Below, in pieces: positions 26,479 to 38,246 of a DNA stretch of 38,246 nt. How positions within the stretch are numbered: position 1 is the first letter of the stretch; each line of letters begins with the position of its first letter. The translations under genes and the position numbers were made by a program. Where the stretch lies: positions 1 to 38,246 of the forward strand of contig JAISWF010000169.1 in assembly GCA_031271165.1 (NCBI GenBank). Direction: 5' to 3'. This stretch comes from Deltaproteobacteria bacterium (lineage in GTDB: Bacteria; Desulfobacterota; Desulfarculia; Adiutricales; Adiutricaceae). The notes below the pieces were generated by a model. The model was given only the letters and a program-made list of their open reading frames with translations, ran no database searches and was not told the origin of the DNA.

Positions 26479-27918
26479 ATGAAGAAATTAAGCCCAGATA
26501 TTATTGTAGAAATTATAGCTAATTCTCCAAATATACCAAAAGATAAGCAATATAATCTGCTTGTTAGCATGGCTGGAAATAGTGCCCAGACAACTGCCCA
26601 ATCTTTTCTGGTTTTGCGTCCGCAAAATTTACATATAATTACTTCAGAGGAGTGCCAAGATGAAATCATTTTAATTAAACAGGAAATAGCCTTTGGCAAA
26701 GGACGTGACGAAATTGATCCTGCTGATGAGAGCATAATAACTTATAGTATTTGCGATCCAACCAATCCTGTAGATATATATAAAACTATTAAAGATAAAA
26801 TATATTCAATTCAGACAAATGATCTAGCAAAGCTCAAGATCGTTATTGATATTACAGGTGGAAAAAAAGTAATGAGTGCTGCGGCTGCGTTAGCAGCCTG
26901 GCAATTAGATATGGACATTGTCTACAGTGAAAAAAGCAAATATTACAATGATGCTCGTTTTCCAGATGGTCATGATAAAATACAAATTATCAAATTAGAT
27001 AATCCTATTACTATTTTTGGTGATCAAGAAATTTCTAAAATAGATGAATTATTCAATAATGGACTATTTAAAGCTGCAAGTAATGCTTATGAATCTTTAA
27101 TCAATAGACTAGATGATAAATACTCCAAAAAGCAAATTGCAAAATTAAAATTTAAATTATTAATTTCAAACTTTTATGAATCATGGTGTGATCTGAATAG
27201 AGTTAGTCTACATAAATGCACTGATCAGATGATTAAACATAAAAAGTCGATTACTAATAATTTAAATACATCTAATTTAAAAAAAATAAATTCTCAAATA
27301 GAATTTGCTAACAACTTAAAAGACAAAAATGTTCCTAAATTTATTAATATTATTAATTTCTTTCATTTAGGGCTTCATTACATGAAAAATAGATTGGATT
27401 TTTCAGCCTTACTTTTTTATCGATGCATGGAAGGTATTTTAAGTTCGAGAATAGAGCAGGAGCATGACCCTTTTAAGGTAGGCAAACCTGATTATAAATT
27501 ATTATTAAACAAAGATATACATTGCATAGAAACATTAAAAAATAATTACATAAAAGCAAGTGCAGATTTATTAAAGTGGGATACAGCTGAACTGCCAAAT
27601 AAACTGGCTTTTATGAATTCAGTTATTTTATTGGTGGTCCTTAAAGATAAGTTTATCGAATATTGTTTGCCAAAAAATATTGAATCATTATCTGATTTTT
27701 GTAAACATCTTCAAAATCTAGGAAACACACGTAATAATAGCATTTTAGCTCACGGAGGCAACTATGTAAAATCTAAAGATTGCGAAAGCTTAAAAGAGCA
27801 AGCTAAAACAATGTTAAAAACATATTTAAGTTATTATAGCCTAACAAAATTTGGTATAACGTATTATTCAGAAGATTTAGAAAGCTATCTGTCTGATTTA
27901 TCTTTTATTAATTTTTAA
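26479..27918 (+). CDS. CARF-HEPN CRISPR ancillary nuclease (Cas02710/Csm6-like)
   Basis: A 479-residue protein from ATG 26479 (GGAG eight bases upstream). The N-terminal CARF domain carries the ligand-site motif DITGGKK at 124-130 in a Rossmann-like context, typical of proteins that bind cyclic oligoadenylate made by Cas10. The C-terminal part is helical and ends with RNNSILAH (R418 to H425), the Rx4-6H motif of HEPN ribonucleases. The architecture and DxTGGKK fit the TIGR02710 (Cas02710) group, related to Csm6. It should cut RNA when activated, as the effector arm of the type III response. The gene is markedly AT-rich compared with cas6-csm4 downstream. Confidence 0.85.
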   Translation: MKKLSPDIIVEIIANSPNIPKDKQYNLLVSMAGNSAQTTAQSFLVLRPQNLHIITSEECQDEIILIKQEIAFGKGRDEIDPADESIITYSICDPTNPVDIYKTIKDKIYSIQTNDLAKLKIVIDITGGKKVMSAAAALAAWQLDMDIVYSEKSKYYNDARFPDGHDKIQIIKLDNPITIFGDQEISKIDELFNNGLFKAASNAYESLINRLDDKYSKKQIAKLKFKLLISNFYESWCDLNRVSLHKCTDQMIKHKKSITNNLNTSNLKKINSQIEFANNLKDKNVPKFINIINFFHLGLHYMKNRLDFSALLFYRCMEGILSSRIEQEHDPFKVGKPDYKLLLNKDIHCIETLKNNYIKASADLLKWDTAELPNKLAFMNSVILLVVLKDKFIEYCLPKNIESLSDFCKHLQNLGNTRNNSILAHGGNYVKSKDCESLKEQAKTMLKTYLSYYSLTKFGITYYSEDLESYLSDLSFINF

Positions 27919-27926
27919 CGTGGTAA

Positions 27927-28904
27927 ATGTCTCCATTATCAGACACATTATCAGGCACTGCATTACCTGATTGTCCGCTTCCTCTCGCTCGTCTGACTTG
28001 TCGAATTGAGTTTCTGAGCGGCGGCAGCGTTTCCCAGCGTTGGGGTCAAACCTTAAGAGGCGGATTGGGGTATGCCTTGCGGGATCTGTTTTGCGCTAAG
28101 GGACGGTTAGAGTGCGGAAAATGCAACCTAAACACTGCTTGTCCCTATTGTTACCTATTTGAATCTCCAGTCCCGCCTCAAACCGAGGTGATGCGTCTTT
28201 ACACCCATACCCCCCACCCTTTAATTATTGAAGCCCATCCCAAAATTCCGACCCAGGCAGTACCCGGAGACTCTTTAGATTTCTCCATCGTCCTCATTGG
28301 CCAAGCCTTGGCCTATTTTCCCTTTGTGGCCAGAGCCATTGAGGAACTTGGGCGGCAGGGTTTAGGTCGCGATCAGGTACGGTTTACCCTTTGGCACATA
28401 ACCGATGAGTTCGGTCATAAATGCTGGACGGCTAATGGGCGGGTTTTGACCCCGACCCCAGTGTGTTTGCCTATCTCAGCTGGAAAATCCCGCTCTGGAG
28501 TTTTTTTAATAAATTTTTTCACTCCTTTGCGTCTTAAGGTAGGTGGAGGTCTTTGCAAGCAGCCCAGCTTATCTGATTTGGTTCTTTCCCTGACCCGGCG
28601 CTTATTTCTTTTACGGTATTTTCATGGCGACGGCTCCAAGGAAGATTTAAACTCCATGTTTGGACCAGCCGCTCAGGCTGCTGTCTTGACAAAGCAGCAA
28701 CTTATGTGGCATGATTACTCACGCTTTAGTACCCGAAAAAATGTCGAAATTCCTATCGGCGGCCTAACTGGTTGGCTATGTTTTGAAGGCAATTTTGGAA
28801 TCCTTGAGCCTCTCTTGCGCCTTGGAGAATATATTCATGTTGGTAAAAATGTTATTTTTGGTTTAGGCCAAATAACCGCTGAAGAACAGAGAGAGGTCGC
28901 TTAG
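27927..28904 (+). CDS. cas6: Cas6 pre-crRNA endoribonuclease
   Basis: A 325-residue RAMP protein beginning eight bases after the previous stop. It has a cysteine cluster near residues 55-75 (CGKCN, ACPYC) seen in one Cas6 branch and the C-terminal glycine-rich signature GGLTGWLCFEGNFGILEPLLRLGEYIHVGKNVIFGLGQI-like (in order GGLTG, EYIHVGKN, FGLGQ). It cuts each repeat transcript, leaving an eight-base handle on the crRNA; with the downstream repeats that handle would be ATTGAGAC. A catalytic His cannot be named with confidence. It was also considered as Csm5, but the FGLG C-terminus fits Cas6. Confidence 0.88.
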   Translation: MSPLSDTLSGTALPDCPLPLARLTCRIEFLSGGSVSQRWGQTLRGGLGYALRDLFCAKGRLECGKCNLNTACPYCYLFESPVPPQTEVMRLYTHTPHPLIIEAHPKIPTQAVPGDSLDFSIVLIGQALAYFPFVARAIEELGRQGLGRDQVRFTLWHITDEFGHKCWTANGRVLTPTPVCLPISAGKSRSGVFLINFFTPLRLKVGGGLCKQPSLSDLVLSLTRRLFLLRYFHGDGSKEDLNSMFGPAAQAAVLTKQQLMWHDYSRFSTRKNVEIPIGGLTGWLCFEGNFGILEPLLRLGEYIHVGKNVIFGLGQITAEEQREVA

Positions 28905-28961
28905 GAAGCTAAAAAATATTTTTTTGCCATATTTAAATATGAATTTATAAAAAAGGAATAA

Positions 28962-31379
28962 ATGTCAATATTCGGAAAAAATAGCCCTAAAAAAAAGTAC
29001 ATTGAAGCTTCAGAACTAGCTCTAGGGGCCTTGACCCATGATCTGGGGAAGTTTCTGGAACGGACTCAGCCAGCCGGTCAAGGTTTGAGCCAACTGAGCC
29101 AGAACCTTCAATCAAGCGTCTGTCCGCTATTTAAGGGACATTATTCCCGTAATCATGTTCTGTACACCAATGAGTTCTTCCTGATTAATCACTTCTGGCC
29201 GCCTGAGTTAGACTCGGATCGAATTGCTAACCTAGCCATATACCATCATTTTTCGACCAATGAGGAACAACAATTAATCTCTGAAGCTGATCGCTTATCC
29301 TCAGGCCATGAGCGACGCGGTGAGGAGCTTTCAGCCAGAACCCGTTTAACCAAGCTGCTTTCGCCTTTGAGTACAGTTTTTCTTGACTCGCCCGACGACT
29401 GGAAGTCCAAGGGACGTTTGCCCCTGGCTCCCTTTTCAATGGACTCCGCCTTTCCGCTAACTGATAGCCAAGAGGAGATTCTCTGTCCTCAGTATAAAGC
29501 TTTGTGGGAACAATTCTTAGTCGCCTGGCAAGCCAACAACTGCTCTAAGCCCTTAGATTTTGTCAACAGAGCACTGGCCATTTTGGAACATTTTACCTGG
29601 TGCATACCCTCGGCCGTAAATGCCAGGCCTGATATATCTCTTTTCGATCACTTGAAAACGACGGCTGCCTTGGCCTTGGCTAAAGCTTGGTCTGAAGATG
29701 CGGACCGTCCATACCTTTTGCTCGTGGGCAGCCTTAACGGAATCCAAAAACACATTTTTAAAGTTAAAGCCGGCCAAGGTGGGTTGGCCAAGCGGATGAG
29801 GGCAAGGTCTTTTCAAGTGGCGGTCTATGCTGAGTCGGTCATGCTTGAGATATTGGGCCAGTTGTCCCTACCGTTGACCCAATGTTTGACCCTGGCTGGT
29901 GGAAAATTCCAGTTGCTTCTGCCCAATAGTCAAGAAACCAAAGAAGTAATTGAATCTGTTTTATTAATGACATCTGACTGGCTTTATCAACAGTCAGGAG
30001 CCGAACTAAGCATTAACTTGGCGAATAAAACTGCCACTGATGAAGAAATAAAAAAAGAATTCCCTCAATTGGCTGACGAGGCTTTAGAATTATTGCGACA
30101 GGAACGTAACCGCGAGGGTTCGCCTATTGTCCAGACCCAAGATGGTTGGTCAGAAGAACGATTCGTTTTGGCCAATCTCATGCCAGAGGCAGGGCAAGGC
30201 CTCTGTCCAGGATGCGGCCAAAGACCGGAGGCAGATGGCGATCTTTGTCCTTCTTGCCAAGACGAAAAAAAGCTGGGTACTGAACTGACCAAAGCTGAAC
30301 GGGTAATTTTTTTCAGGGAAAAGTCGCCATCGCCGGACAAATATTCCACTCCCGTAGGCACATTTTCACTGCTTAAAGAAAAGTCTACTCCTGCCGAGGT
30401 CAATTTAGTTGCCTCCTTGGGCCCTTATTGTCCCCAGTTTGCTCCCAAGCAACCGCTGGTCTCCAGACCCCGGGCAAGACACGTTCCTTTGGAAGATGGG
30501 CAACCCATGGAGTTTTCACAATTGGCCCAAAAGGCTCTTGGTCAGCCAGCGTTAGGTTATCTAAAGCTTGATGTTGACAGACTCGGATATGCTTTCTCCG
30601 ATGGTTTTGGTGAGGACCGTTCAATTTCTAGGACTGCGGCCTTATCCCGGTCACTGGAAGCCTTCTTTAGCCTTCAGGTCGAGGATTTATGTAAAAAATA
30701 CAGTGTTTATATTGTTTACTCCGGTGGTGATGACGTGGCTGCCATTGGACCTTGGGATCAAATTTTTGAATTAGCTCTAACGCTTAGAGAAAAATTTCTG
30801 ACCTATTGCGACAATAACCCGCGTCTGACCTTGTCGGCTGGAGTAGCCATAGCACCACCCAAACTACCTGTCACGGCCGGACTTGAGGAGGCCGAGAAAC
30901 TCTTGTCTATATCTAAAAACATTCCTGGGCCAGGGGTGCTTCCTTGGGCCTATGTTTCTACCGCCAGCGACGAAACTACCACTTCTGCCACCAAGGACCG
31001 AATAAGCGCTTTTTCCGTATCCCTGCCGTGGGCTAAATTTTCTTCAACTATGTGTGATGCCAAACAACTGTCCGATTGGTTGTCTAAAGGATTCGTTTCA
31101 ACTGGTCAAGTTCGACGGCTGCTTAATTACGCTCAAATGTACCAAAATTACCACATCACAAGGAAGACGCACTTTTTTGAATACGCTCCACTTTTGGCTA
31201 GAGATGTGTCTCGCAATTGGACTGTTAAGCACAACGATGCCCCTGAGAAATCACAAGCCAGGGATTGGGCAGCCAGTTTAGCCCTTCCTCATTCGTCCAA
31301 AATGGCGGAACTGGGCTTTGTCTGTCGCTATGCCTTGACCGCCAACCGTCATTTCGAAGAGCGGCAACAAAATAATTAG
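28962..31379 (+). CDS. cas10: Cas10/Csm1, large subunit of the type III-A complex
   Basis: An 805-residue protein with AAGGAA upstream. The N-terminal HD nuclease motif is THDLGKF (H26, D27). A zinc finger has CPGC (C415, C418) and CPSC (C429, C432). The cyclase palm carries an intact GGDD at 588-591 (YSGGDDV), so synthesis of cyclic oligoadenylates is expected. HD would cut single-stranded DNA. The C-terminal D4 domain is helical. Overall it fits Csm1 rather than Cmr2. A gap of 57 bases precedes it; csm2 follows 12 bases later. The gene ends in TAG. Confidence 0.95.
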   Translation: MSIFGKNSPKKKYIEASELALGALTHDLGKFLERTQPAGQGLSQLSQNLQSSVCPLFKGHYSRNHVLYTNEFFLINHFWPPELDSDRIANLAIYHHFSTNEEQQLISEADRLSSGHERRGEELSARTRLTKLLSPLSTVFLDSPDDWKSKGRLPLAPFSMDSAFPLTDSQEEILCPQYKALWEQFLVAWQANNCSKPLDFVNRALAILEHFTWCIPSAVNARPDISLFDHLKTTAALALAKAWSEDADRPYLLLVGSLNGIQKHIFKVKAGQGGLAKRMRARSFQVAVYAESVMLEILGQLSLPLTQCLTLAGGKFQLLLPNSQETKEVIESVLLMTSDWLYQQSGAELSINLANKTATDEEIKKEFPQLADEALELLRQERNREGSPIVQTQDGWSEERFVLANLMPEAGQGLCPGCGQRPEADGDLCPSCQDEKKLGTELTKAERVIFFREKSPSPDKYSTPVGTFSLLKEKSTPAEVNLVASLGPYCPQFAPKQPLVSRPRARHVPLEDGQPMEFSQLAQKALGQPALGYLKLDVDRLGYAFSDGFGEDRSISRTAALSRSLEAFFSLQVEDLCKKYSVYIVYSGGDDVAAIGPWDQIFELALTLREKFLTYCDNNPRLTLSAGVAIAPPKLPVTAGLEEAEKLLSISKNIPGPGVLPWAYVSTASDETTTSATKDRISAFSVSLPWAKFSSTMCDAKQLSDWLSKGFVSTGQVRRLLNYAQMYQNYHITRKTHFFEYAPLLARDVSRNWTVKHNDAPEKSQARDWAASLALPHSSKMAELGFVCRYALTANRHFEERQQNN

Positions 31380-31391
31380 GAAAGGCAGAAA

Positions 31392-32051
31392 ATGGCAACT
31401 GAAAAAGGTAAAATTACTAGCATAAAGCAAGATAAAGGCTTTGGATTTATCAAGTGTGCCTCTGGAGTTGATGCTTCTTTTAATTTTGGTGATGTGGAAG
31501 ATAAATTGACCATTAAAGAAGGTGCTGAGGTGGAATTTCAGCTACAAGAAAATATCACCGGTAACCCGATAGCCATAGCCAAACACATCAAAGTCCTTGG
31601 CTCTCACCGTTCCCCTTATCACACCAATCAGGGAAGGACCTTCTCGCCCGCGGTGCCGGTTAATTTACCTAACGGTACGGTATTTACCACCTTTTATGGT
31701 GATGATGGACAACTTTGCCCGAGTTTGTTTTTCGAAGCCGCCCAGAAAATATCCAATGCTTTTGACCAAGCCAACCTCAAACCGACTCAATATCGGCAGA
31801 TATATCAGCAATTTCTTAGTTTAATCATACCTCTTCGCAAAAATGAGGACTACTTTCCTCAGGCTAAGGAAAAATTTGCCATCCTTTACACTGAAAGAAT
31901 TGTACGAGCTCATAAACGTGGAGTTTTACCAACGATAGTTAAAAATTTTTTTGACTTACACCTAAAGCAGGCATTGTCAACTCCAAAAGAGATGCTCGGT
32001 TTTTTTCGTTATATAACTAGTATTCTTTGTTATTTGGACAAATCTAAATAA
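31392..32051 (+). CDS. csm2: Csm2 small subunit fused to an N-terminal cold-shock domain
   Basis: A 219-residue protein; ordinary Csm2 is about 120-150. Residues 1-70 form a cold-shock/S1-like fold: GKITSIKQDKGFGFIKC contains RNP1 (KGFGFI), and DASFNF occupies RNP2, followed by IKEGAEVEFQL and a final PIAIAKHIKVL strand. A linker (about 71-95) leads to a helical Csm2 body: LFFEAAQKISNAFDQANLKPTQ, YRQIYQQFLSLIIPL, YTERIVRAHKRGV and FFRYITSILCYL. In type III-A complexes Csm2 lines the crRNA-target duplex. The extra domain should bind single-stranded RNA and could grip the target RNA or the crRNA. Its position between cas10 and csm3 supports the Csm2 call. AGGAAAGG precedes the ATG. Confidence 0.86.
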   Translation: MATEKGKITSIKQDKGFGFIKCASGVDASFNFGDVEDKLTIKEGAEVEFQLQENITGNPIAIAKHIKVLGSHRSPYHTNQGRTFSPAVPVNLPNGTVFTTFYGDDGQLCPSLFFEAAQKISNAFDQANLKPTQYRQIYQQFLSLIIPLRKNEDYFPQAKEKFAILYTERIVRAHKRGVLPTIVKNFFDLHLKQALSTPKEMLGFFRYITSILCYLDKSK

Positions 32052-32075
32052 TAGCACCCGCCGAAAGGAGTTTTT

Positions 32076-32753
32076 ATGGGCGTTAAACTTAAAGGCATTG
32101 AAGAAATCAAAGGGACCCTAAAGGTTTTGGAGTCGGGATTACGTATTGGCGGCTCCAAAGATAATATTGGTATCGGGGAAACCGACAATCCTATTATTCG
32201 TCATCCAATCACCAAATTGCCTTATGTCCCGGGCTCCTCGGTCAAGGGGAAGCTACGTTCTCTGCTGGAATTGCGGGATTGCCCTACAACTCAAAACAAT
32301 GGCAACCCATGCTCTTGTGGCAATTGTAAAGTTTGCGATTTGTTTGGGCCACACGATAGCAAAAAAGTTAAGTCTCCTACCCGGCTACTTTTTCGTGACT
32401 GTCAACCCAAGCCGGAAACAGCCAAAGAATGGGAGTCGGCTGGAGTCAATTCAGATCTCAAACAGGAAGTCTTAATTGACCGCAAGACCAATACCGCCAG
32501 CGGTCGGATCGGACCACGCACAACTGAGCGTATCCCTGCTGGTGGTGAATTTGACTTCTCTTTAGTCATACGGTCTTTTGAGGGTGACAACGTGGCAGGT
32601 TTTTATCAGTACCTGGCCGAGGGTTTTGAACTCCTGGGCAAAGATTATCTGGGCGGTTCTGGTTCCAGAGGATACGGGCATGTGGCTTTCGTGGCCGAAG
32701 ATGGAACACCGTTGGCGGACTACCTCCGCAAAAGGACTGAGGGTTCAAAATGA
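32076..32753 (+). CDS. csm3: Csm3, RNase backbone subunit
   Basis: A 225-residue RAMP (RRM-fold) protein with AAAGGAG upstream. LRIGGSKDNIGIGETDNPIIRHPITKLPYVPGSSVKGKLR is the Csm3 signature (key parts: GIGETDNPI, PGSSVKGK). Asp37 in ETD matches the catalytic aspartate that cuts target RNA at 6-base steps. A CSCGNCKVCDLFG cysteine cluster (zinc site) and the C-terminal GGSGSRGYG loop are present. Several copies form the backbone of the complex. It overlaps csm4 by ATGA. Confidence 0.95.
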   Translation: MGVKLKGIEEIKGTLKVLESGLRIGGSKDNIGIGETDNPIIRHPITKLPYVPGSSVKGKLRSLLELRDCPTTQNNGNPCSCGNCKVCDLFGPHDSKKVKSPTRLLFRDCQPKPETAKEWESAGVNSDLKQEVLIDRKTNTASGRIGPRTTERIPAGGEFDFSLVIRSFEGDNVAGFYQYLAEGFELLGKDYLGGSGSRGYGHVAFVAEDGTPLADYLRKRTEGSK

Positions 32754-33724
32754 CCCCGGGCTACGACTGGAGTCTTTGGACGGACTGGCGTTTCAGGCTA
32801 GAGTTGGAGGCTCCCTTGGCTACCCCTCTCCAGTCTGACACTCTCTTTGGGCACTTGTGTTGGCAAGTGGCCCTGGACCAAGGCCCCCAAAATTTGGCAA
32901 CTTGGCTTTTACCTTTTTTAAATGGTGAGCCTCCTTTTGTTTTGTCTGACGGTTTTCCAGCCGGTTTGCTGCCAAAGCCTTTGTTTCCACGCTCTCGAAG
33001 GTCTCTTTCAGCTGGTATTGACACTCGCGAGCTTAAGGAAAAAAAGTACGATTCATATAAAAAACAGGAAAAGGCGCCTTTTCAGACAATCGAAGAATTT
33101 CGCAGCACTTGCGCTTCACCAGAAAAGCCTCCCACAGTTGCCTTCAGTCCTTGGGTAACAACCCACACTCCTCATGCGACCATTGATCGGATGACAATGA
33201 CTACAGGAGGTGAAGGGTCAGCCGGTAACCTTTACGAGACCACGGAAAAGCACCTGCCCCATAAGGATGTGGACGTCTATTTGCGTTCACTGGCCGGCCA
33301 GGAAGCTATGGTTGAAAAAAATCTCGAACAAATAGGCCGTTGTGGCTTTGGCAAAGACAAATCTGTTGGGTTGGGGAGATTTACGGTAAAAAACGTTGAA
33401 AAAACAACAGATCTCAGAGAAGTTGAAACTGTTGAAGGCTTCATTAACCTATCAAGCTTTGTTCCGGCAGCAAATGATCCTAAAGACGGTTACTGGCGAC
33501 TGCGGGTGAAGTATGGTCGACTCGGAGAGAATGCTGGAGAGGGGAACCCTTTCAAAAAACCTCTTCTGCAGATAGAACCTGGAGCAGTTTTCAAAAATAC
33601 GAGACCTTATCTAAAACCTTGGTACGGTCGGATGGTAGAGTCTCTTTCTGCTTCCTTTCCTCAGGCTGTCCAAAATTGTTATACGCTTACTTGTCGTTGT
33701 CGCTGGCCTGAAAAAGCCGTCTAA
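32750..33724 (+). CDS. csm4: Csm4, crRNA 5'-handle-binding subunit
   Basis: A 324-residue RAMP protein, coupled to csm3 through ATGA. The start FRLELEAPLATPLQSDTLFGHLCW is typical of Csm4, and the C-terminal half contains GFGKDKSVGLGRF, the glycine-rich RAMP loop. Csm4 binds the crRNA 5' handle and anchors Cas10. The next gene starts four bases after its stop, so csm5, which normally follows, is absent. The C-terminus (about 250-324) does not look like a second RAMP domain. Confidence 0.9.
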   Translation: MTPGYDWSLWTDWRFRLELEAPLATPLQSDTLFGHLCWQVALDQGPQNLATWLLPFLNGEPPFVLSDGFPAGLLPKPLFPRSRRSLSAGIDTRELKEKKYDSYKKQEKAPFQTIEEFRSTCASPEKPPTVAFSPWVTTHTPHATIDRMTMTTGGEGSAGNLYETTEKHLPHKDVDVYLRSLAGQEAMVEKNLEQIGRCGFGKDKSVGLGRFTVKNVEKTTDLREVETVEGFINLSSFVPAANDPKDGYWRLRVKYGRLGENAGEGNPFKKPLLQIEPGAVFKNTRPYLKPWYGRMVESLSASFPQAVQNCYTLTCRCRWPEKAV

Positions 33725-33728
33725 ACAC

Positions 33729-35435
33729 ATGTGCGATAATTTAAATTCTGATAACTTTCTATCAGCCAGAAATGTTGCAGAATATGCTTATTGCCCACGT
33801 CTTTTTTATTTAATGCAAGCAGAAAATCAATTTATCCCAAGTGTTGACACAGAAATTGGGAAAATTTTTCATAAAGATGTTGATAAGCCTAGTATAATCT
33901 CGCCACAAGCTGAAAAAAATGACTACGATAAGCCTGTCACAGTATCTGGTTTGGTTTTAAGTAGCCAAAAACTTGGAGTAATTGCTGTTTTAGACTTGGC
34001 TGAACTGGATGGACTCAAAGCTGTTCCAATAGAATATCGCAAAGGTCGCCCCAAAAAATGCCGAATGGAAAGCGGAGGCCAAATCGAAAACACCATTCAG
34101 CCTTGGCCAGTTGATCTCATTCAAGTGGGACTTCAGGTCATTGTTCTTGAAGAAGCAGGTTATATAGTCTCAGAAGCTGCGCTATATTACGGGGAAGAAA
34201 ACATAAAGTTAACAATTCCTGTTGATTGCAATTTAAAAACAGAAGCTTTGAAAATTCTTGATGACGCCAAAAAATGTCTTGAAGGGTCACGCCCTTTGCC
34301 TCTTGTCAATGACACTAGATGTCCACGTTGTTCTTTATATCAAATTTGCTTACCATATGAGGTAAATTTTAATCAAAATACTGATTCAAGCAGTAGCCAA
34401 CCAACAAAAAAATTATGGCCCCTTCGCGAAGATGGTATCCATGTTGTGAGCCAAAATGAAGGTTTTAAAATTGGCATTTCTGGTTTAGAATTAAAAATCA
34501 GTGACAAAGACGGAAAAGTCACTAAAAAAATTCCTATAATTAACATAGATAGTTTAACAATTGTAGGGATGGTTCAAATAAGCACTCAAGCAATTCAAGT
34601 TTTGACAGAAAAACAGATACCAATAACATTTATTTCTTCTGCTGGCAGGTTATTGGCTGTTATATCTCCGCAATATGCTATAAGTTCCTTGGTTCGACGC
34701 TCTCAAGTTCTCCAATTTAACCAACCAGATAAATGTTTAGAGCTGGCAAAAGCGTTAATTTATGCAAAAATATTGAATCAGCGCACTATACTCATGCGTA
34801 ATTCAAAAAATGTGTCCGAAAATATATTTAATGAGCTTTTAATGGTTTCAAAAAAGTCCAAAGATGCAAGTTCTATAAATGAGCTTCGTGGTTTTGAGGG
34901 ATACGCTGCTTCCATATACTTTAAATATTTTCCTGATATAATACATTCTAAGTCACTAGCAACGCAATTTTTAGATAATGGCAGGAAACGTAGGCCACCA
35001 CCGGATCCGGTTAATGCGGCACTTTCTCTAGCTTACTCTGTTTTGACACGAGAATGCATTTCTGCATTACTTTTAGCAAGTCTTGAACCAACTATTGGCA
35101 GTTATCATGTCTCAACGCCTGGAAGACCAGCTTTAGCACTAGATTTAATGGAACCATTTAGGCCTTTAATTTCAGATTCAGTGGTTATTACTTGTTTTAA
35201 CAAAAATGAATTAACCGAAGGTCATTTTTTAAAAACATCTGCAGGATATACAATGACTAAATATGGCCTAAAAGCTTTTTTCTCAGCTTTACATAGACGA
35301 ATGGAAACAGAAATTAGCCATAATGTTTTCAATTATAAACTAAGCTATCGCAGAATGTTAATCTTGCATGCAAAAATGGTAGCTGCCTGGCTCGTTGGCG
35401 ACATAAAAGACTTATCTTTTCTTATAACAAGATAG
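33729..35435 (+). CDS. cas4-cas1: Cas4-Cas1 fusion (CRISPR adaptation)
   Basis: A 568-residue fusion. Residues 1-215 are Cas4: a first cysteine in AYCPRLFY, later cysteines in RCPRCSLYQIC (4Fe-4S ligands), and a RecB-like core with GKIFHKDV (His), AVLDLAEL (Asp) and PIEYRKG. In the last, Arg occupies the Lys position of the usual E-x-K. Residues 230-568 are Cas1 with ELRGFEG, SYHVSTPGRPALALDLMEPFRPLISD, carrying the Glu, His and Asp of the integrase active site. The protein trims and integrates new spacers with Cas2. The gene is AT-rich relative to csm genes. Such fusions are best known from type I-G systems and occur in some type III loci. Confidence 0.93.
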   Translation: MCDNLNSDNFLSARNVAEYAYCPRLFYLMQAENQFIPSVDTEIGKIFHKDVDKPSIISPQAEKNDYDKPVTVSGLVLSSQKLGVIAVLDLAELDGLKAVPIEYRKGRPKKCRMESGGQIENTIQPWPVDLIQVGLQVIVLEEAGYIVSEAALYYGEENIKLTIPVDCNLKTEALKILDDAKKCLEGSRPLPLVNDTRCPRCSLYQICLPYEVNFNQNTDSSSSQPTKKLWPLREDGIHVVSQNEGFKIGISGLELKISDKDGKVTKKIPIINIDSLTIVGMVQISTQAIQVLTEKQIPITFISSAGRLLAVISPQYAISSLVRRSQVLQFNQPDKCLELAKALIYAKILNQRTILMRNSKNVSENIFNELLMVSKKSKDASSINELRGFEGYAASIYFKYFPDIIHSKSLATQFLDNGRKRRPPPDPVNAALSLAYSVLTRECISALLLASLEPTIGSYHVSTPGRPALALDLMEPFRPLISDSVVITCFNKNELTEGHFLKTSAGYTMTKYGLKAFFSALHRRMETEISHNVFNYKLSYRRMLILHAKMVAAWLVGDIKDLSFLITR

Positions 35436-35449
35436 ACGAGAGGTGCTCT

Positions 35450-35740
35450 ATTACTAGATGCTACTTAGTGCTATATGATATTTCTGACCCTAAAAGGCTA
35501 TATAAAATAAATAAAATCGTTAAAGGCTACGGTATCACATGGCAGCTATCAGTTTTTTTGTGTATTTTACGAAATATTGACAGAGTTCGTCTTGAAAATG
35601 ACATCAAAGAAATTATTAACATAAAAGACGATCAAGTACTTATATTAGATTTAGGCCATGACATTGACAAACTATTATCGTCAATCTCGGTTATTGGTCT
35701 TCCTTTACCGCAAGGCGATGATAAAGTAATTTTTGTTTGA
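35450..35740 (+). CDS. cas2: Cas2 (possible ATT start codon)
   Basis: A ferredoxin-fold protein of about 96 residues: YLVLYDISDPKRLYKINKIVKGYGITWQLSVF is typical Cas2. The only usual start in frame is GTG 35468, which begins at LYDIS and would cut the first beta strand. Upstream, ATT (35450) has GAGAGG six bases before it and gives the full N-terminus I/M-TRCYLVLYDIS. The 14-base gap after cas4-cas1 also fits. If ATT is not used, the protein starts at 35468. Cas2 dimers bridge two Cas1 dimers during spacer integration. Confidence 0.9.
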   Translation: MTRCYLVLYDISDPKRLYKINKIVKGYGITWQLSVFLCILRNIDRVRLENDIKEIINIKDDQVLILDLGHDIDKLLSSISVIGLPLPQGDDKVIFV

Positions 35741-36061: not shown

Positions 36062-38245
36062 CTCTGACCTGCTCCCTGATGAATAAGGGATTGAGACATC
36101 TCCAGTTGCCAGACTGTTGAATCGTTGAAAACCTCTGACCTGCTCCCTGATGAATAAGGGATTGAGACATACGGGCGCCTGCAATGATAGTCATGGGACT
36201 TTTCTCTCTGACCTGCTCCCTGATGAATAAGGGATTGAGACTGAATGGTGCGCTTCGTCAGGCGCTAGATGAGTATACTCTGACCTGCTCCCTGATGAAT
36301 AAGGGATTGAGACTTAAGACGTCGTCAAATCGCATAAGGGCCCTCAAACTCTGACCTGCTCCCTGATGAATAAGGGATTGAGACTAATGTGAGCGACATA
36401 AAGTCCATCGCATCTTGCGCTCTGACCTGCTCCCTGATGAATAAGGGATTGAGACTTTATACTCTATTGTTCCCAGATGGGTGGTTATTTCTCTGACCTG
36501 CTCCCTGATGAATAAGGGATTGAGACACCCCTGGAGAAGATTAGACTTTTCCTGTATAGTATTCTCTGACCTGCTCCCTGATGAATAAGGGATTGAGACT
36601 CCCGGCCTCGGTTGAGGACGTTGAGGATGCGGTTCTCTGACCTGCTCCCTGATGAATAAGGGATTGAGACAGGATCGTCCACGTCTTTCTGAGTCAGGTA
36701 GTCCTCTGACCTGCTCCCTGATGAATAAGGGATTGAGACGGTTCGGCGGTACTCAGCGTGGCGTTGGAGTAGTTCTCTGACCTGCTCCCTGATGAATAAG
36801 GGATTGAGACCCACTCTAACGTCGGTAAATCTAATAGATACGCACTCTGACCTGCTCCCTGATGAATAAGGGATTGAGACGCGAAATCGCAATCGACAAA
36901 CCAGCTGCCGGTAAACTCTGACCTGCTCCCTGATGAATAAGGGATTGAGACCCCGCTCTGTAATTTTCCAGAATCCCGAGGGACTCCTCTGACCTGCTCC
37001 CTGATGAATAAGGGATTGAGACAAGTTTTTTACAATCCGCGCCCACTCAGCCCGCTCATCTCTGACCTGCTCCCTGATGAATAAGGGATTGAGACTTTAT
37101 TTTTCAAAGAACAGGGGCGGCTTAAAAGCCTCTGACCTGCTCCCTGATGAATAAGGGATTGAGACCCCTGAGTGCGTTCGTATTCGTTGTGGCGTCGGAC
37201 TCTGACCTGCTCCCTGATGAATAAGGGATTGAGACGCCGCCAGATTTAAGGCTTTCGCCTCAGACCAAGGTCTCTGACCTGCTCCCTGATGAATAAGGGA
37301 TTGAGACAATGCGTTGCCTTTGTACAGCTTTGGATGCACAAAGCTCTGACCTGCTCCCTGATGAATAAGGGATTGAGACCCCTCTTTGACAGGCAGGAGG
37401 GCATGAAGGTAGTTGGCTCTGACCTGCTCCCTGATGAATAAGGGATTGAGACAGAGTCAGGCCATCGATAAGGTCTGAGGCATCAACTTCTCTGACCTGC
37501 TCCCTGATGAATAAGGGATTGAGACTCCAGCGCGGCATTTATGTCAGTCCGGACCGTCGCACTCTGACCTGCTCCCTGATGAATAAGGGATTGAGACTAA
37601 TTGTAGCGCTATACTCCAGCTCTTTCCGAGGCTCTGACCTGCTCCCTGATGAATAAGGGATTGAGACATCGACAAACCAGCTCCCTGCCAAAAAGGCTTC
37701 ATCGCTCTGACCTGCTCCCTGATGAATAAGGGATTGAGACAGTCAAAGTCCATTAATGATAATCTCCCCACTCCCGTCTCTGACCTGCTCCCTGATGAAT
37801 AAGGGATTGAGACTGTAAAATGTTATTGAAATAACAATAGCCCGCTATACTCTGACCTGCTCCCTGATGAATAAGGGATTGAGACCCTTTGCGGCTCCTG
37901 ATGGTGCCGCAAAGGGGGTTACTCTGACCTGCTCCCTGATGAATAAGGGATTGAGACGAATGTAAGGACTCACAAACATTGCTCTCTCCTTTTCTCTGAC
38001 CTGCTCCCTGATGAATAAGGGATTGAGACACCAAGTGGCCTCATCAAACTTCTTGGCCAGGTCGTACTCTGACCTGCTCCCTGATGAATAAGGGATTGAG
38101 ACATATAAGCCGTTATGCTTATCCATGATTTTTATAACTCTGACCTGCTCCCTGATGAATAAGGGATTGAGACGCGCACGGACAGATGCTAATTCAGCCG
38201 CCGATATTACTCTGACCTGCTCCCTGATGAATAAGGGATTGAGAC
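36062..38245 (+). CRISPR. CRISPR array, 31 identical repeats of 36 bp, continuing past the window
   Basis: The repeat starts CTCTGACCTGCTCCCTG and ends AAGGGATTGAGAC; I located 31 copies at 36062, 36133, 36206, 36278, 36349, 36420, 36491, 36564, 36635, 36704, 36775, 36845, 36916, 36987, 37060, 37130, 37200, 37272, 37344, 37417, 37490, 37562, 37632, 37705, 37778, 37850, 37922, 37994, 38067, 38138 and 38210, with 30 full spacers of 33-37 bases. All copies look the same; no degenerate end is seen, and the last base (38246) already begins the next spacer. TCCCT and AGGGA form a short stem in the repeat, and the 3' ATTGAGAC resembles the type III 5' tag ATTGAAAC. The transcript should run on the plus strand from the leader at left. 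Confidence 0.98.
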
Positions 38246-38246
38246 G

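Follow-up and report, generated by a model that had tools for sequence, protein, structure and literature searches.

A cold-shock domain on the Csm2 small subunit of a type III-A CRISPR variant without csm5

The locus described here raises the question of what a cold-shock domain (CSD) is doing on Csm2, the small subunit of type III-A complexes, in an operon from which csm5 is missing. The locus lies in what we refer to as the window, i.e., the whole stretch of 38,246 nucleotides that was analysed (contig JAISWF010000169.1 of a Deltaproteobacteria bacterium, family Adiutricaceae). The gene in question, csd-csm2, and its parts are as follows, with the supporting evidence in brackets.

31392..32051, + strand: csd-csm2 gene, 219 aa (open frame, Pfam, PADLOC)
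31392..31604, + strand: cold-shock (OB-fold) domain, residues 1-71 (PF00313, AlphaFold2 strands, Foldseek to cold-shock proteins)
31434..31451, + strand: RNP1 motif KGFGFI, residues 15-20 (alignment with CspB and homologues)
31470..31490, + strand: degraded RNP2 region DASFNFG, residues 27-33 (alignment with CspB)
31605..31676, + strand: linker, residues 72-95, predicted to be disordered (pLDDT <50, alignment with homologues)
31677..32048, + strand: Csm2 small-subunit domain, residues 96-219 (PF03750, hhalign, AlphaFold2, Foldseek)

The gene is a single open frame from an ATG at 31392 to a stop codon at 32049-32051, and the sequence AGGAAAGG upstream of the ATG is Shine-Dalgarno-like, which makes it a plausible ribosome-binding site. 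In a Pfam search, the N-terminal part matches PF00313 over residues 5-59 (E=3.3e-6, 27.3 bits, cut-off 27); it also passes the cut-off in a PF00313 scan of the window genome, with 29.8 bits, and is matched by the PADLOC model CSD_V at 2.9e-9. Pfam, NCBIfam, and PADLOC all place the cold-shock domain within residues 1-62. An AlphaFold2 model of the protein, built on a three-row alignment, folds the N-terminal half as a five-stranded barrel (strands 3-12, 17-22, 27-31, 46-52, and 61-68), and a Foldseek search of this half against the PDB retrieved cold-shock proteins, the best with TM values of 0.7-0.85 by target length. The Csm2 match, placed at residues 112-214 by Pfam and PADLOC, is weak: PF03750 gives E=2.8e-4 and 22.1 bits, under its cut-off of 24.8, and PADLOC gives 9.5e-5. 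Nevertheless, because profile-profile comparison using hhalign yields matches of 95-98.6% (98.6%, 9.5e-16, to the zinc-ribbon Csm2 proteins discussed below and 95.2%, 2.5e-8, to plain Csm2), we regard this part as a divergent member of PF03750 despite its score. Modelled alone, it has five main helices (pLDDT 87), and seven of its first eight Foldseek matches are chains of Csm complexes, the top chains (7uzz_I, 9g9h_C, 7uzy_I, and 6iqw_B) having weak E values of about 0.9-2.3 and TM of about 0.5. A profile of the three CSD-fused Csm2 domains alone found no solved Csm2 by sequence, and the zinc-ribbon Csm2 profile matched solved Csm2 weakly (9zs4_B, E=8e-4; 6mur_B, 0.0033). The window protein is a real fusion of a cold-shock domain, a flexible linker, and a Csm2 small subunit. 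This is what the initial annotation had read from the letters of the sequence, and Pfam, PADLOC, AlphaFold2, Foldseek, and hhalign bear it out; the structure prediction it had proposed as a check returned an N-terminal OB fold and a helical, Csm2-like C-terminal part, while the proposed HMM search succeeded for the CSD and fell short of the cut-off for Csm2.

The gene sits between cas10/csm1 and csm3, the usual position of csm2, in the following surroundings.

26479..27918, + strand: CARF-HEPN (Csx1/Csm6-like) effector (PADLOC CARF_HEPN, 9e-94)
27927..28904, + strand: cas6 (PF10040, 1.1e-14)
28962..31379, + strand: cas10/csm1 with intact HD (THDLGKF) and GGDD motifs (TIGR02578, 1.7e-152)
32076..32753, + strand: csm3, in which the putative catalytic Asp is present (ETDNP; TIGR02582, 8.6e-58)
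32750..33724, + strand: csm4 (TIGR01903, 1.8e-26)
33729..35435, + strand: cas4-cas1 fusion of the cas4g/cas1g kind (NF049935, 2.2e-171, 571 bits, cut-off 560)
35468..35740, + strand: cas2 (PF09827, 3.4e-13)
36062..38246, no strand: CRISPR array with about 31 copies of the 36-nt repeat CTCTGACCTGCTCCCTGATGAATAAGGGATTGAGAC (reaches the window end)

The type III-A models over their cut-offs in the window are Csm1, Csm3, and Csm4. Directly after csm4 comes the cas4-cas1 fusion, with no csm5 between them, and a csm5 search of the whole window genome assembly (81.6% complete) found none, so that the absence of csm5 remarked on in the initial annotation holds for the assembly as well as for the operon. 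With Csm5 not found, the system is therefore filed as a variant of III-A: it is a type III-A system without csm5. As separate observations, this type III-A operon has cas4 and cas1 fused in the cas4g/cas1g manner, with NF049935 over its cut-off, and third-position GC across 26479-35435 is 0.21 in csx1, 0.24 in cas1, 0.32 in the CSD and Csm2 parts, and 0.43-0.47 in cas10, csm3, csm4, and cas6; these differences suggest a mosaic origin.

Among 98 relatives, the same fusion was found at two further type III loci, in G004 (locus L049; 225 aa, 53% identity) and in G010 (locus L050; 276 aa with a long linker, 39% identity), which represent two other genera of the window's family. The PF00313 scores of the CSDs in these two homologues are 27.0 and 34.9 bits. 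An assembly chimera of two genes, which the initial annotation had named as a possible source of error, is ruled out because the architecture recurs in these two genera. Among the 63 genomes of the class, CSD-Csm2 is present in just three, i.e., the window genome, G004, and G010. A scan for the Csm2 domain returned the two known relatives and no others, plasmids gave no match, and a pattern scan of genome contigs for the protein found nothing; the contig scans used a few degenerate patterns that distant cases could escape, and other phyla were covered by these pattern scans alone. Two viral matches (L042 and L043) were rejected as stand-alone small cold-shock ORFs that are not Csm2 fusions. 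Of the CSD-bearing long frames of the class (G049, G050, G054, and G060), the one read was G049, in which the CSD lies at the C-terminus of a larger protein that looks NYN-like by eye; no cas gene adjoins it, and it was likewise set aside.

We aligned the three CSDs with the sequence of CspB. RNP1 is kept in all three copies, and its GFI core is invariant over the three genera at 39-53% overall identity. RNP2 has lost half of its surface in the window copy, where S stands for F27 and N for H29 in CspB numbering (S29 and N31 of the protein), with the last aromatic residue of the motif kept; the corresponding region is eroded in G004 (DLYFLL) and fully canonical in G010 (DLFFHY), making G010 the one copy of the three in which both RNP motifs are complete. 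The window CSD is slightly acidic (pI 5.7). As judged from these residues, with RNP1 kept and RNP2 partly lost in the window, nucleic-acid binding is therefore plausible for the CSD-Csm2 family and uncertain for the window copy. In the window genome (G000, at the completeness given above), the Csm2-fused CSD is the sole PF00313 match over threshold.

The erosion of RNP2 in the window and G004 copies and the acidity of the window CSD could also mean that the domain is a remnant of little function that was carried along after the fusion, and the absence of catalytic motifs elsewhere in the G010 operon fits such a history. We nevertheless consider a remnant very unlikely, given the invariant GFI core of RNP1 across three genera, the open state of all frames, and the intact motifs of Cas10 and Csm3 in the window. 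In the G010 operon (L050:4989-11482), the HD and GGDD motifs of Cas10 are gone (the corresponding stretches read TCAIGKF and SSGAS), as is the Asp of Csm3 (VENP), and the complex may therefore be decaying; the cas frames nonetheless remain open, and among the three CSDs that of G010 departs least from the canonical form. This operon also carries a 675-aa ORF, unlike cas genes, between csd-csm2 and csm3.

A wider survey covered 395 genomes of the phylum, 86 of which have Csm2 by PF03750, with G183 added by profiles A2 and A4. In exactly six genomes of the survey (G283, G413, G117, G178, G099, and G183), a zinc-ribbon profile aligns from the N-terminal end, as Csm2, the ribbon pattern being CxxC or CxC, a spacer of at least 11 residues, and then CxxC; viral sequences gave no match to zinc-ribbon Csm2. 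csm5 is missing in 7/7 module genomes, counting these six and the window genome, and the sole csm5-profile match among them, in G099, was discarded because it lies inside csm3. The region past csm4 is visible and without csm5 in the window, G010, G117, G413, G099, and G283, and a contig end truncates the loci of G178, G183, and G004. In contrast, csm5 is present in 77 of the 80 genomes with plain Csm2 (for G329, G307, and G346, on the strength of a match that falls short of the curated cut-off). In each of the three exceptions (G138, G324, and G369), no more than about 2 kb separates csm2 from the end of its contig. Set against each other, 7/7 module and 3/80 plain genomes without csm5 give a Fisher value of 2e-8, a figure that ignores shared descent. 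Csm2 was called plain using frame lengths and the zinc-ribbon profile, together with a direct reading of about twenty frames; the long frames of G118, G436, G307, G161, G078, G143, G329, and G219 proved to be overlaps with the cas10 end or short unstructured tails and contain no module. In these genomes, an N-terminal module on Csm2, be it a CSD or a zinc ribbon, goes with the absence of csm5.

We would like to note some other features of the zinc-ribbon loci. The Csm3 of G099 (L071:3261-4106) has Glu for the usual catalytic Asp (TTENP). In G117 (L053:2961-5244), a transposase-like ORF, so judged by eye, borders cas10, and a C-terminal 336-aa piece of Cas10 alone remains beside csm2. Card1/Can2-like genes (DUF1887-like by eye) follow csm4 at two zinc-ribbon loci (L070:7480-8640 and L071:5014-5895).

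Trees were made of 20 Cas10 (403 columns) and 16 Csm3 (222 columns) sequences. The module loci form one side of a branch in both, with supports of 94/92 (Cas10) and 87/93 (Csm3) that are moderate and under the tool's star threshold. Within them, the CSD lineage nests among zinc-ribbon loci as sister to G117 (99/97 for Cas10, 90/91 for Csm3). In the simplest history suggested by these trees, the csm5-less module state arose once and a CSD replaced a zinc ribbon once, so that two changes of state suffice. A single origin also means that the link with csm5 is one evolutionary event, and it could be a coincidence in one ancestor. The initial annotation had offered replacement of a missing subunit as one possible role, and this now has partial and indirect backing: the module is found only where csm5 is missing, within one clade. 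The RNA binding, raised target affinity, and melting of target structure that it also proposed stay conjectural.

If the link with csm5 merely reflects shared ancestry, the module could be a general RNA or ssDNA tether, or an autoregulator acting, e.g., on the mRNA of its own operon. The grouping of the module loci as one origin, which makes the association one event, agrees with this, as do the CSDs fused to other defence proteins in CoCoNuT systems (PMC11090510) and the match of a retron Se72 effector model to the window CSD (5.3e-9, under cut-off). We think this unlikely, however, because Csm2 retained a module at the same position even when the fold of that module switched to a CSD from a zinc ribbon, a sign that its role was maintained.

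As to what that role may be, the Csm5 capping domain contacts target RNA and Csm2, and its structure varies between species (PMC10289348). The restriction of the Csm2 module to loci where Csm5 is missing fits the transfer of one Csm5 job, and suggests that the extra Csm2 domain may have taken over the work of the lost Csm5. We give about an even chance to the proposal that, in csm5-less III-A systems, a zinc ribbon and later a CSD on Csm2 supplies Csm5's contact with the target, and perhaps its end-capping. Each Csm2 of the filament would display its module beside the target-RNA channel, where the module would bind single-stranded target RNA, or else the 3' portion of the crRNA. It would thereby make contact with the target, and perhaps cap the filament end, as the Csm5 capping domain of ordinary Csm complexes does. 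Under this proposal, a single loss of csm5 would have gone together with a zinc ribbon on Csm2, and in the window lineage the ribbon would later have been exchanged for a CSD, because a different small fold that binds nucleic acid would have been able to serve in its place. The broader proposal, of a distinct csm5-less III-A branch in which a swappable small-subunit module takes over both the target contact and the capping of the head subunit, we put forward tentatively, as possible rather than probable.

A different Csm5 job may have been transferred. In S. epidermidis, Csm5 brings in PNPase and RNase R for crRNA trimming and stimulates both (PMC9762709), and with csm5 missing in all module genomes, the module could act in maturation of the crRNA 3' end, by recruiting or guiding these nucleases or by shielding the 3' tail. 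A zinc ribbon and a CSD, however, share nucleic-acid binding more obviously than they would share a protein partner, and we hold a role in maturation to be improbable. Target contact or capping is accordingly ranked first among the jobs that may have passed to Csm2, with nuclease recruitment second.

If the swappable-module reading is true, every belly subunit of the filament would grip RNA by a module of its own. The fusion alone is of modest novelty; it is the exclusivity of module and csm5 that makes an experiment worthwhile, a natural csm5-less branch with an interchangeable Csm2 module being a ready-made test of module function. Such a branch bears on how target RNA is held at the head end of type III complexes and on the variability of the Csm5 capping domain, and it suggests that the small subunit can take on extra modules and still assemble, a property that would be useful for type III RNA-targeting tools. 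Searches of the open-access literature yielded no description of a CSD with Csm2, Cmr6, or Cas proteins, nor of zinc-ribbon Csm2. The initial annotation's view of the fusion as undescribed thus stands for CSD-Csm2 as far as that literature was searched, but the pairing of a CSD with a type III subunit has a precedent: the structure of a CSD-Cmr6 has already been solved (PDB 9arw).

Several known systems can be set beside the window system. The Csm2 of III-A complexes (PF03750; 7uzz, 6iqw, and 9g9h) shares with it the helical fold, the position between cas10 and csm3, and profile homology; the window Csm2 differs in adding an N-terminal CSD and linker, in a system without csm5. CSD-Cmr6 (PDB 9arw, 9z7q, 9z7v, and 9z7x) likewise has an N-terminal CSD on a type III effector subunit, and is the nearest solved sequence to the window CSD (33.3 bits, E=4e-7). 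There, however, the partner is Cmr6, which caps the head of the III-B filament, and not a repeated small subunit. Cmr6 is the III-B homologue of Csm5 (PMC10289348), and by analogy this CSD is a hint that CSDs may be able to serve at the Csm5 end of type III complexes. The zinc-ribbon Csm2 loci resemble the window in their cas10-csm2-csm3-csm4 order where the contig allows, in genomes without csm5, in a module at the same N-terminal place, and in their grouping by Cas10 and Csm3, and differ in that a CxxC or CxC ... CxxC ribbon replaces the CSD. Finally, CoCoNuT restriction systems (PMC11090510) also carry CSD and zinc-ribbon modules, attached to defence proteins whose predicted target is RNA, but they are built on a McrBC-type GTPase/nuclease and have no CRISPR complex.
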